DNA of 29,374 nt from IMG/VR virus record IMGVR_UViG_3300046006_000296, positions 1-29,374 of that record; one strand, given 5' to 3'. Below are positions 8,914 through 16,596 of the stretch, one piece after another. Below the pieces are notes generated by a model, which ran no database searches, was not told where the DNA came from, and saw nothing but the letters and a program-made list of their open reading frames with translations. Position 1 is the stretch's first letter. Every line of letters begins with the position of its first letter. A program made the translations under genes and the position numbers. Source of the DNA: a virus.

Positions 8914-9282
8914 TTAACTTAAGTTTTCGAGTTTGTACTTGAGGCTCGTCACCGCATCAACCACGGCATCGAACAGGTTAACAAGGTCGCTGTCCTTCGG
9001 GAGTGAGCCTTTGATTTCGTCGAGGAAGGTCAGCAGCGACTTCACATACGCCTTCGGGTTGCTGTTCTTATGGAATTCGACATCGTAGCCCGTGATGATG
9101 CCGTACCGCCCTTGATACGCTTCGGCGTACTTGTCCACGAGGTCGGGGATGGCTTCGTAGTACTCCCCGAGCGCCATGTGCTGCGCGAAAGACTTGGTGG
9201 CAAGATGCTGAAGGTGCGTGATGGTCGCGCTGTGAAACATGGTTCCGACAAAAAGCGCAGCGGTTTTTTCGTGAGCAGCCAT
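8914..9282 (-). CDS. DUF5856-like (Dps/ferritin-like helical) phage protein
   Basis: 122 residues. The motif series 'TITHLQHLATKSFAQHMALGEYYEAIPDLVDKYAEAYQGRYGII' resembles viral proteins I know as DUF5856, a helical family with a Dps-like look (His and Glu spaced as on a four-helix bundle). Whether a metal site is formed cannot be seen from the sequence alone. It is the first gene of a long leftward late operon and has a strong ribosome binding site (GGGGAG two bases upstream of ATG in the coding sense). Possible roles are DNA or virion protection, but none is demonstrated to my knowledge. Confidence 0.75.
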   Translation of the reverse strand: MAAHEKTAALFVGTMFHSATITHLQHLATKSFAQHMALGEYYEAIPDLVDKYAEAYQGRYGIITGYDVEFHKNSNPKAYVKSLLTFLDEIKGSLPKDSDLVNLFDAVVDAVTSLKYKLENLS

Positions 9283-11525: not shown

Positions 11526-11627
11526 AAAAACCTCTCTGTGGTTAGACAGGACAAGCGTAACTGTTTACCAAGGTTAATGCAACAACTTTAGTTTAGGTTT
11601 CTAGATTCAAAACTGATTGAGGCTAAA

Positions 11628-11732
11628 GATGGTCTAAAACGATGGTCTAGACCCTGATGACTGATGGTGAACTCTGCACGGTTTAGACGGAATACGCCTA
11701 AAGCGAGTCGTGCAGAATTGATGACTGGATGG
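11628..11732. repeat. Iteron-like short repeats (GATGG family) with central palindrome
   Basis: GATGGTCTA occurs at 11628-11636 and again at 11641-11649. TGATGACTGATGG at 11655-11667 recurs as TGATGACTGGATGG at 11719-11732. The core GATGG therefore appears four times in one orientation. The second copy runs into a perfect 10-base palindrome, GGTCTAGACC (11644-11653). Short direct repeats beside a replication gene are typical of initiator binding sites. The repeats are few and imperfect, so the call is tentative. Confidence 0.45.
11673..11716. repeat. Interrupted inverted repeat (8 + 5 bp)
   Basis: TCTGCACG (11673-11680) is the exact reverse complement of CGTGCAGA (11709-11716). Inside it, TTTAG (11682-11686) pairs with CTAAA (11698-11702). 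Together they can form a long stem with an asymmetric internal loop. It lies inside the non-coding region and could be an operator pair, an origin hairpin or the first element of a structured RNA. Confidence 0.5.
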
Positions 11733-11867
11733 AGCCACCCTGCTGTCGGCTACTTTTGCCGGTTTCCCGGTGCCATTCACGCTTCCCGACTAACGCCGCG
11801 TGCCTACAGGCTGGCTGCCCCGGTGTAGGTTTAAGTTGGCTCTGCGCGTAGTTTCCCCGACCAGAGC
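11733..11867. other. Chain of potential RNA hairpins (candidate structured RNA, strand uncertain)
   Basis: Consecutive complementary pairs are visible: AGCC/GGCT (11733-11736 with 11748-11751); CCGG-TTTC-CCGG at 11759-11770, which on the minus strand is a GAAA (GNRA) tetraloop hairpin; CACGC/GCGTG (11778-11782 with 11798-11802); CCTACA/TGTAGG (11803-11808 with 11824-11829) with an inner GGC/GCC; and GCTCTG/CAGAGC (11839-11844 with 11862-11867). Individually each is short and could occur by chance in GC-rich DNA. Their dense succession in a non-coding stretch is what is notable. No known RNA family was recognised. Confidence 0.35.
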
Positions 11868-11899
11868 AGTCAACCGAGTGAGCAAGCGTGGTGGGGTGT

Positions 11900-11928
11900 T
11901 TGACACGACTAGAACAGCCATGTACATT
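11900..11928 (+). promoter_or_regulatory. Sigma70-type promoter, rightward
   Basis: A perfect -35 hexamer TTGACA (11900-11905) is followed after 17 bases by TACATT (11923-11928), which matches four of six -10 positions. Transcription would begin near 11935. No open frame with a ribosome site follows, and a hairpin terminator lies some 50-70 bases downstream, so the product would be a short RNA. Confidence 0.55.
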
Positions 11929-11935
11929 ACCTATC

Positions 11936-12010
11936 ACGCTCGATTCGCATCTGAAGCGTATAGGCAGCCCCCCTGCCGCGTCAAGCCCCCGTTCAGGGGG
12001 TTTGTCGTTT
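11936..12010 (+). ncRNA. Candidate short RNA, OOP-like in position, antisense to the end of the Cro operon
   Basis: Between the 11900 promoter and the terminator, about 70-75 bases can fold into three successive hairpins: ACGCT/AGCGT (11936-11940 with 11955-11959), GGCAG/CTGCC (11963-11967 with 11973-11977), and the terminator stem. The 3' end overlaps the last codons of the minus-strand 59-aa gene (stop at 11993). In lambda the 77-nt OOP RNA is likewise made in the opposite direction between cII and O, overlapping the cII 3' end. Similarity here is of layout, not of sequence. Boundaries are predicted, not observed. Confidence 0.42.
11983..12003 (+). terminator. Intrinsic terminator hairpin
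   Basis: AAGCCCCC-GTTCA-GGGGGTTT forms a stem of eight pairs (one G-T wobble) with a five-base loop, followed on the plus strand by a broken T-tract (TTTGTCGTTT). It would end the short rightward RNA. On the minus strand the same stem overlaps the stop of the 59-aa gene but is followed by CTTGACG, a poor T-tract, so leftward termination is less certain. Confidence 0.65.
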
Positions 12011-12172
12011 CTGGGGTCTAATGCGCTTAACGGCTTTGAGGTAAACGCGCCAAGCGCCAGTAGCCGCTTTGAAAGCCTTTATCCGGGCTTCGCTCCAGTC
12101 AGTCGCAGGCCATGCCTTGAATACAGCCCACGCCTTGTCGTAAGCGATTTTGGCGGCTTCTGGGCTGACCAT
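11993..12172 (-). CDS. Small basic helical protein downstream of the Cro-like gene (cII position)
   Basis: 59 residues from ATG at 12172, starting MVSPEAAKIAYDKAWAVFKA. The same frame extends upstream to 12283, but that part overlaps the Cro-like gene and has a poor composition. The protein is helical, Trp/Ala/Lys-rich and ends very basic (KAVKRIRPQKRQTP). It lies 5 bases after the Cro-like stop and ends inside the terminator hairpin. It occupies the place of cII in lambda-type operons but does not resemble CII. It may bind DNA or RNA; no family was recognised. Confidence 0.62.
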   Translation of the reverse strand: MVSPEAAKIAYDKAWAVFKAWPATDWSEARIKAFKAATGAWRVYLKAVKRIRPQKRQTP

Positions 12173-12177
12173 AGGGG

Positions 12178-12369
12178 TCAGCCGGGGGTAGGCGTAGAAT
12201 CGGCTGCAACGGGCGTAGTGACGGCTTCTAGCGCCTTCCATTGCCATACCCGCATGGCAGGTAGTTTCCCTGCCTTGACCCACCTGCTGACGGCAGGGCG
12301 GGACACCCCAAGTTTACGGGCGAGGGCGGCTTTGCTACCGGCAACGGCTAGGGCGGCTTGGATGTCCAT
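12178..12369 (-). CDS. Cro/YdaS-like helix-turn-helix regulator
   Basis: 63 residues from ATG at 12369, starting MDIQAALAVAGSKAALARKL. The helix-turn-helix is residues about 10-36: GSKAALARKLGVSRPAVSRW, then VKAGKLPAMRVWQWKALEA. This is the compact fold of Cro/YdaS-type regulators, which bind short palindromic operators as dimers. The open frame extends upstream with leucine-rich sequence that is not protein-like for this family and would cover the promoter region, so the internal ATG is preferred. It is divergently oriented to the recombination operon, with two GTTAAC sites in the 113-base gap, so it probably represses one or both promoters. Confidence 0.85.
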   Translation of the reverse strand: MDIQAALAVAGSKAALARKLGVSRPAVSRWVKAGKLPAMRVWQWKALEAVTTPVAADSTPTPG

Positions 12370-12379
12370 GAAGCGGTAA

Positions 12380-12427
12380 GTTAACGATGGTAAAAATAAA
12401 TGCAAGAGGCTGTTGACATCGGTTAAC
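12380..12427. promoter_or_regulatory. Pair of GTTAAC palindromes, candidate Cro operators
   Basis: GTTAAC occurs at 12380-12385 and 12422-12427. The centres are 42 bp apart, four helical turns, so both sites face the same side of the DNA. The right one lies in the spacer of the rightward promoter; the left one is just upstream of the Cro-like start codon. GTTAAC is also common in coding regions of this genome, so the motif alone is weak evidence; position and phasing are the support. Confidence 0.4.
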
Positions 12428-16524: not shown

Positions 16525-16596
16525 TCACCTGTAGTTTAACTGGCAAAACTCCGGGTTTTGACCCCGGCAATCCTCGTTCGAACCGAGGCAGGTGAT
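16525..16596 (+). tRNA. tRNA-Gln(UUG)
   Basis: A full cloverleaf can be drawn: a 7-bp acceptor TCACCTG/CAGGTGA; T8-A9; D-arm GTTT/AAAC with GG in the loop; a 5-bp anticodon stem CCGGG/CCCGG with loop TTTTGAC, anticodon TTG; a four-base variable loop; and a T-arm CCTCG/CGAGG with loop TTCGAAC. The U1-A72 pair is typical of tRNA-Gln. The discriminator base appears to be T rather than the usual G, and CCA is not encoded. It lies at the convergence of the rightward early operon and the leftward late operon; its last base touches the endolysin stop codon on the other strand. It reads CAA codons, and the late operon encodes very Gln-rich proteins. Confidence 0.93.

Follow-up and report, generated by a model that had tools for sequence, protein, structure and literature searches.

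Introduction

In plasmid ColE1, RNA I, a short terminated RNA with three hairpins, lies opposite the long folded RNA II at the replication region, and plasmid rep genes of the IncI/IncB type possess pseudoknotted leaders together with a short antisense RNA. Coliphage 186 carries the face-to-face, mutually interfering promoters pR and pL, which drive its lysis/lysogeny genes. The 186 regulator Apl has been studied (PMC7498355). In phage lambda, convergent promoters pR and pO regulate replication, and pO activity lowers transcription from pR (PMC3985674); the oop RNA acts on cII, with an overlap of 52 nt (PMC5869508). Cluster A mycobacteriophages use either RepA or, in non-RepA phages, an RNA-based origin, with a noncoding RNA needed for replication (PMC7157519). 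Lake phages are also known to encode large noncoding RNAs; GOLLD, ROOL and OLE are treated in PMC12286853.

Here we describe a locus in viral DNA from IMG/VR record IMGVR_UViG_3300046006_000296, positions 1–29,374; this whole stretch of 29,374 nucleotides is referred to as the window. An earlier note on this DNA read the locus as an OOP-like short antisense RNA in a lambda-like early layout and regarded such a regulatory RNA as new in a Cro-only phage. A short, terminated RNA is indeed predicted in the oop position, but that reading is incomplete, as the RNA is one arm of a promoter pair. Since an oop-type RNA at such a position is known from lambda, the short-RNA part is not new in kind. The opposed promoter, the large minus-strand RNA and the interlocking of the small hairpins had been overlooked, and the large pseudoknotted partner RNA is the more unusual part of the element.

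Materials and Methods

Homologous viral contigs were gathered via the Sak recombinase gene, the O-like gene, DUF1376 or the pattern of the element. The element-pattern search returned at least 119 contigs; as the pattern fixed both −35 boxes, only features outside it were counted from this set. The O-like set comprises loci retrieved by the O-like protein and by nothing else, 71 of which have 500 bp or more of upstream sequence. Within the DUF1376 set (33 loci), 18 elements were counted by strict match and the remainder by eye from the sequences. The mutual exclusivity of the RNA and DUF1376 was assessed with profiles and motifs in partial records, the last loci being classed by eye. Greedy ORF calls in relatives are unreliable and were used only with a profile match or visible homology. 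All records are metagenome contigs, and since these derive from related phages, the cases are not independent. The element is carried by hundreds of uncultured phages, apparently from freshwater, to judge by sample context.

Results

Promoter P1 and the Short Rightward RNA

Within the window alone, matches to a P1-type promoter are at chance level (4 found against 3.3 expected in 8 kb), so comparison across homologues had to decide. The perfect −35 promoter TTGACA-17-TACATT pointed out in the earlier note (Table 1) proved to be conserved well beyond chance. Its hexamers show 10/12 consensus matches; NANNNT lies 16–18 bp from TTGACA in all 66 distinct P1 segments, where shuffles predict 11.4, and an A stands 7 or 8 nt past the −10 box in 68 of 70. 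In the alignment of the Sak set, every sequence has CGTCAAG and nearly every one TTGACA; L005 and its sister L014 have TTGACT.

Table 1. Positions of the element and its neighboring genes in the window.
Feature	Positions	Strand	Details
Promoter P1	11900–11928	+	−35 TTGACA 11900–11905, 17 bp, −10 TACATT 11923–11928
Short terminated oop-like RNA	11936–12012	+	predicted start A11936, three hairpins, ~75 nt
Hairpin 1 of + RNA	11936–11959	+	arms B and C, ACGCT:AGCGT, extreme 5′ end
Hairpin 2 of + RNA	11963–11977	+	GGCAG-CCCCC-CTGCC, inside P2 spacer
Terminator	11982–12012	+	CAAGCCCCC-GTTCA-GGGGGTTTG then TCGTTTCT; terminator-like site 11982–12004
Promoter P2, facing P1	11955–11984	−	−35 TTGACG (complement 11979–11984), 18 bp, −10 TACGCT (complement 11955–11960)
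Large structured RNA from P2	11655–11948	−	predicted start G11948, extends at least to 11655
Hairpin in P1 spacer, − RNA	11906–11920	−	perfect stem of at least 4 in 37/59 vs ~14% of shuffles
Helix A:B	11886–11939	−	11886–11895 with 11930–11939; closes 5′ hairpin of − RNA, encloses P1
Helix 1	11839–11867	−	11862–11867 with 11839–11844; 4/6 pairs with two-sided changes
Helix 2	11803–11829	−	11824–11829 with 11803–11808; 100% paired, 5/6 two-sided
Helix 3, pseudoknot from helix 2 loop	11772–11815	−	11812–11815 with 11772–11775; 100% paired, 3/4 two-sided
Helix 4	11778–11802	−	11798–11802 with 11778–11782; 100% paired, 2/5 two-sided
Helix 5, pseudoknot from helix 4 loop	11745–11790	−	11786–11790 with 11745–11749; 100% paired, 3/5 two-sided
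GNRA-tetraloop hairpin	11758–11772	−	GAAA here; GUAA, GCAA in relatives
Helix 6	11673–11716	−	11709–11716 with 11673–11680; 98.6% paired, 5/8 two-sided
Cro-like / YdaS HTH regulator	12178–12369	−	PF15943 3e-9, P22_Cro 1.4e-6
Small gene, 58 aa	11993–12169	−	end overlaps short RNA by ~18 nt
Replication gene, C-terminal part of O-like / primosomal initiator, 175 aa	10998–11525	−	phrog_678, phrog_6451

Downstream of P1, three hairpins without a gene, the last a terminator, had been described within about 75 nt. The fold of the predicted RNA (−34.3 kcal/mol, z −4.27) accordingly consists of three hairpins and nothing else, and no shuffle folds as well. Among homologues, the stems vary freely while pairing is kept. 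Hairpin 1 retains a perfect stem of at least 5 in 52/74 distinct segments, compared with ~14% of shuffles, and has clade variants such as CCTC:GAGG. For hairpin 2, a perfect stem of at least 4 is found in 54 of the 57 distinct P2 spacers versus ~19% of shuffles, its wobbles not deciding the strand. The terminator stem covaries, and its + strand tetraloops in relatives are GAAA, GCAA, GCGA, GUGA or GAGA.

Loci that keep the genes and lose promoter, stems and terminator had been named as the case against the oop-like reading. None occurs in the O-like set, where the element is present in 71/71 loci and the terminator tail in 69; in the DUF1376 set, the element is present in 30/33, some with CGCGCAAG replacing CGTCAAG, and absent from three (L305–L307).

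Promoter P2 and the Face-to-Face Geometry

The conserved CGTCAA reads as TTGACG on the minus strand, the −35 box of a second putative promoter, P2. TA---T lies 17–18 bp from it in 73/73 distinct segments (8.2 expected), and T, G and C follow 6–8 nt past the −10 box in 59, 59 and 54 of 69, respectively. The −10 boxes of P1 and P2 are 24–26 bp apart in 92 of the 96 distinct elements, and in all distinct elements A2 and T6 of the −10 box are invariant in both promoters and the spacing is fixed. Conserved hexamers, opposed orientation and a fixed distance characterize P1 and P2 as a convergent pair. Several DUF1376 phages (L283–L286, L289–L291, L296) have TTGCGC instead of TTGACG as the P2 −35 box, with all else kept, and thereby offer natural variants for a promoter test.

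Given the predicted starts A11936 (+) and G11948 (−), the two RNAs would overlap by ~13 nt at their 5′ ends. This figure hinges on the positions assigned to the starts, and if leftward transcripts arrive from the Cro operon, the short RNA would be fully antisense to them. Each RNA's hairpin is encoded in the spacer of the opposite promoter, and the small hairpins belong to two predicted transcripts that interlock. In the + RNA, the stretch lying between the two starts finds its pairing partner to the right; in the − RNA, it pairs to the left, as helix A:B.

Gene Neighborhood

The minus-strand order, namely a Cro-like/YdaS HTH gene, a 58-aa ORF, the element with its opposed short RNA and an O-like gene, reproduces the lambda order cro-cII-OOP-O recognized in the earlier note, which was also right in placing the RNA opposite to the Cro-like operon and over the end of its second gene. 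The 175-aa product of the O-like gene matches phrog_678 "replication initiation O-like" (positions 222–309, 1.3e-12) and phrog_6451 (positions 180–255). The 58-aa gene had no family match in profile searches, and in L102 and L145 unrelated DNA cytosine methyltransferase-like ORFs take its place, while the element stays. At 11993–12010, the unrelated minus-strand genes of the window and L145 share the terminal peptide QKRQTP, because their stop codons fall within the terminator of the short RNA. This terminator appears to be a joint at which the 58-aa gene and the cytosine methyltransferase-like gene are exchanged.

These observations bear on a plain oop-like antisense mechanism, in which the P1 RNA would pair with the last part of the Cro-operon transcript and have it cleaved, as oop does, in an RNase III-dependent way, with the cII-O mRNA, P2 and the large RNA being secondary. 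Position, size, terminator and opposed orientation all match lambda (PMC5869508). However, no more than ~18 nt of the small gene are overlapped, against 52 nt in lambda, that gene is swapped for unrelated ones where the element stays, and P2 with its minus-strand RNA, neither of which a plain oop needs, is conserved as strongly as P1. We therefore consider this explanation decidedly unlikely.

Dyads related to GTTTACCAAGGTTAA occur at 12380–12394 and 12412–12426 before the Cro-like gene, and a third, at 11563–11577, separates the RNA domain from the O-like gene; when as many as 3 mismatches are allowed, the window has 18 matches against 4.6 expected. The three dyads are probably Cro operators, and the one at 11563–11577 perhaps accompanies a further promoter for the O-like gene. 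Given this operator-like site and possible promoter, P2 need not be the main promoter of the O-like gene. The window contains no DnaA box, and no iterons mark an origin here. A tRNA-Gln (TTG) gene is located at 16525–16596 of the window, and L072, L031 and L102 also carry tRNA.

An apparently related, unannotated element precedes the replication protein O gene of an annotated spring-water podovirus (L198; MW202691.1, ~8971–9190). It has TTGACT-16-TAAACT, hairpins and a type II-like CCCCCCTAACCCCC stretch; P2 was not seen there.

Large Minus-Strand RNA

Past a 5′ part shared by all elements, the predicted P2 transcript enters a domain of ~250 nt. Aligning 53 distinct sequences of the type found in the window (type I) supports six helices, two of which are pseudoknots, with 98.3% of cells paired in the helices and 22/34 pairs changed on both sides. 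The covariation score, 0.373, exceeds all 500 shuffles (0.153) and all slid controls (at most 0.09), so that two-sided changes surpass both kinds of control, as in a structured RNA. As free energy gives the large RNA weak support (z −1.98), the case rests on covariation. Sequence comparison thus assigns a pseudoknotted domain to the first ~290 nt of the leftward RNA.

RNAalifold energies per strand leave the strand undecided, and the assignment therefore relies on GNRA loops and counts of wobble pairs. The wobbles of the GNRA hairpin, read on the minus strand, are 28 GU and 0 AC. Those of the hairpin in the P1 spacer fit the minus strand in 19 cases and the plus strand in 4, which assigns this hairpin to the P2 RNA. 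Helix A:B has 9 bp and strong covariation in DUF1376 phages (GCGTGACGA:TCGTCACGC and other sequences); across all elements its support is weaker, and its wobbles do not decide the strand.

A DNA-level site, with the dyads acting as protein operators or as single-stranded DNA structure (in recombination, packaging or priming) and not as RNA, would fit the location of dyads inside both promoter spacers. Against it, the stems change with compensation while loops are kept, GNRA loops and wobbles are strand-specific, and the TTGACA-NANNNT spacing and start bases are preserved as in promoters; we regard it as extremely unlikely.

In other phages, domain types II and III substitute for type I; type II has covarying helices too, though fewer, and the shared 5′ part and both promoters are kept across all domain types. 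Genes for homing-type endonucleases (HNH, DUF559) lie between the type II RNA and the O-like gene at L031:2949–3677, L023:817–1386 and L117.

Known phages and plasmids contain no nucleotide match to the noncoding region, and a pattern scan of bacterial and archaeal genomes returned six matches, without stems and apparently due to chance. The Rfam 15 covariance models (group I/II introns, GOLLD, riboswitches and others; window searched to E 5) detected only tRNA, and the large RNA constitutes a widespread RNA family without an Rfam entry. Other candidates were tried and rejected: a group I intron on the minus strand with a GACUA motif (the motif is missing in many clades and there is no Rfam match), a CsrA-sponge-like RNA with GGA loops (not kept in all clades) and operators in the promoter spacers (the stem sequences vary freely).

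The domain might also be a mobile element, intron- or ribozyme-like and associated with homing endonucleases, that displaced DUF1376 and has no phage role of its own. In its favor, type II RNAs are immediately followed by HNH and DUF559 genes, and the slot accepts three or more interchangeable types of domain. However, Rfam has no group I/II intron or other match for it in the window to E 5, no endonuclease gene adjoins the RNA in several type I loci, the window among them, and all types have the 5′ part and both promoters in common, which makes this origin very unlikely.

Slot Exchange with DUF1376

Across the 71 loci of the O-like set, P2 is followed by the structured RNA in 66, by DUF1376 in 5 and by both in none. 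From the other side, all 33 loci of the DUF1376 set have an O-like C-terminal gene next, and none has the structured RNA. The DUF1376 gene begins ~40 bp beyond the P1 −35 box and is followed by the same O-like gene. Both proteins match the primosomal family phrog_6451, DUF1376 at residues 1–114 and the O-like protein at residues 180–255. By sequence comparison, DUF1376 is identified as the N-terminal half of a primosomal/O-type initiator, and the RNA stands in its slot. Profile searches of RNA-type records, which are possibly incomplete, found no DUF1376 in 11 and, in the 10 of these covered by the further profiles, neither Phage_rep_O nor DnaB.

The large RNA could be a cis-acting leader of the next gene, riboswitch-like or an attenuator, with the short + RNA only tuning it. 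It ends ~15–30 nt before a ribosome-binding site and ATG in L102, L072 and L031, and the pseudoknotted leaders of IncI/IncB-type rep genes set a precedent. However, the next gene varies (O-like, a 108-aa gene, HNH, DUF559), in the window ~130 nt, with an operator-like site among them, separate it from the RNA, and DUF1376 phages do without the domain. Where endonuclease genes are inserted between the type II RNA and the O-like gene, the RNA persists undamaged, an argument against its being a simple leader of the O-like gene. Taken together, we find a leader unlikely.

Discussion

Proposed Mechanism

To a two-promoter replication-control switch in the position of lambda pO/oop, with the structured RNA working instead of the N-terminal half of the initiator, we give about an even chance. 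Its parts, namely both promoters and their geometry, the hairpins of the short RNA, the folded minus-strand RNA and the slot exchange, are established by comparison of sequences; we infer transcription from both promoters, their mutual exclusion and a role of the RNA in replication. Rightward transcription from P1 would terminate by itself after ~75 nt and yield an RNA opposed to the end of the Cro-like operon. P2 would produce a long leftward RNA comprising the folded domain and then the O-like gene, or a homing-type endonuclease gene and the O-like gene. With opposed start sites ~12 bp apart, the geometry should leave room for RNA polymerase at only one promoter at a time, and transcription from either would cross the other. 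Promoter choice may therefore set leftward transcription of the origin/replication region: replication would be allowed when the large RNA is made and held back when the short RNA is made. Since the large RNA occupies the exact slot of the DUF1376 N-terminal half, it presumably acts in replication initiation or control as an RNA and not as a mere leader. The convergent lambda pair pR/pO is a precedent for the switch, and the occurrence of RepA or an RNA-based origin among mycobacteriophages indicates that a protein/RNA exchange of such kind is possible.

A bolder version of the switch is tentative and rather doubtful. Here, the folded RNA would replace the N-terminal, presumably origin-recognizing half of the initiator and would itself recognize or prime the origin, the oop-like RNA being a built-in brake. 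P2 would drive DUF1376 and the O-like C-terminal half in one phage group, and the pseudoknotted RNA and the same C-terminal half in the other.

Through the exclusive exchange of RNA and DUF1376, the replacement of part of an initiator protein by an RNA becomes open to direct testing. The short-RNA half of the element reopens the old question of the role of oop-type RNA in replication from phage origins, and the well over a hundred conserved cases form a natural series for promoter strength, spacing and hairpins.

Comparison with Known Systems

The likeness to ColE1 consists in a short, three-hairpin, terminated RNA opposed to a long folded RNA in a replication region. In ColE1 the short RNA is fully complementary to the 5′ part of the long one, which serves as primer once RNase H has cut it, whereas here the predicted 5′ overlap is ~13 nt, unless leftward transcripts start further upstream, and an O-like protein gene follows. 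Like the cluster A mycobacteriophages, the phages described here have either a protein initiator part or an RNA within one group; hosts and genes differ, and the two are likened by arrangement alone. Origins of the mycobacteriophage type are RNA-encoding segments that by themselves sustain autonomous replication with no protein initiator; for the phages here, the comparison covers the slot exchange and the lack of DUF1376, Phage_rep_O and DnaB profile matches. Compared with GOLLD and similar RNAs, the large RNA is smaller, has no Rfam match and is tied to a promoter pair before O-like genes.

With lambda pO-oop-tO, the locus shares, in sequence anatomy only, a sigma-70 promoter, a short RNA and an intrinsic terminator, the RNA being flanked by the gene that follows cro and by the O gene and running opposite to the cro operon. 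Lambda oop is antisense to the 3′ part of cII over 52 nt; here the short RNA overlaps by ~18 nt a gene that has no family match and is exchanged. Whereas lambda pR lies far upstream and no large structured RNA has been described for that phage, P1 is opposed here at ~12 bp by a dedicated second promoter, and the hairpin of either RNA is encoded within the opposite promoter. To our knowledge, such an interlocked design has no close parallel. Relative to the face-to-face pair pR–pL of coliphage 186, the starts here lie at nearly the same place, and the pair would make one small and one structured RNA.
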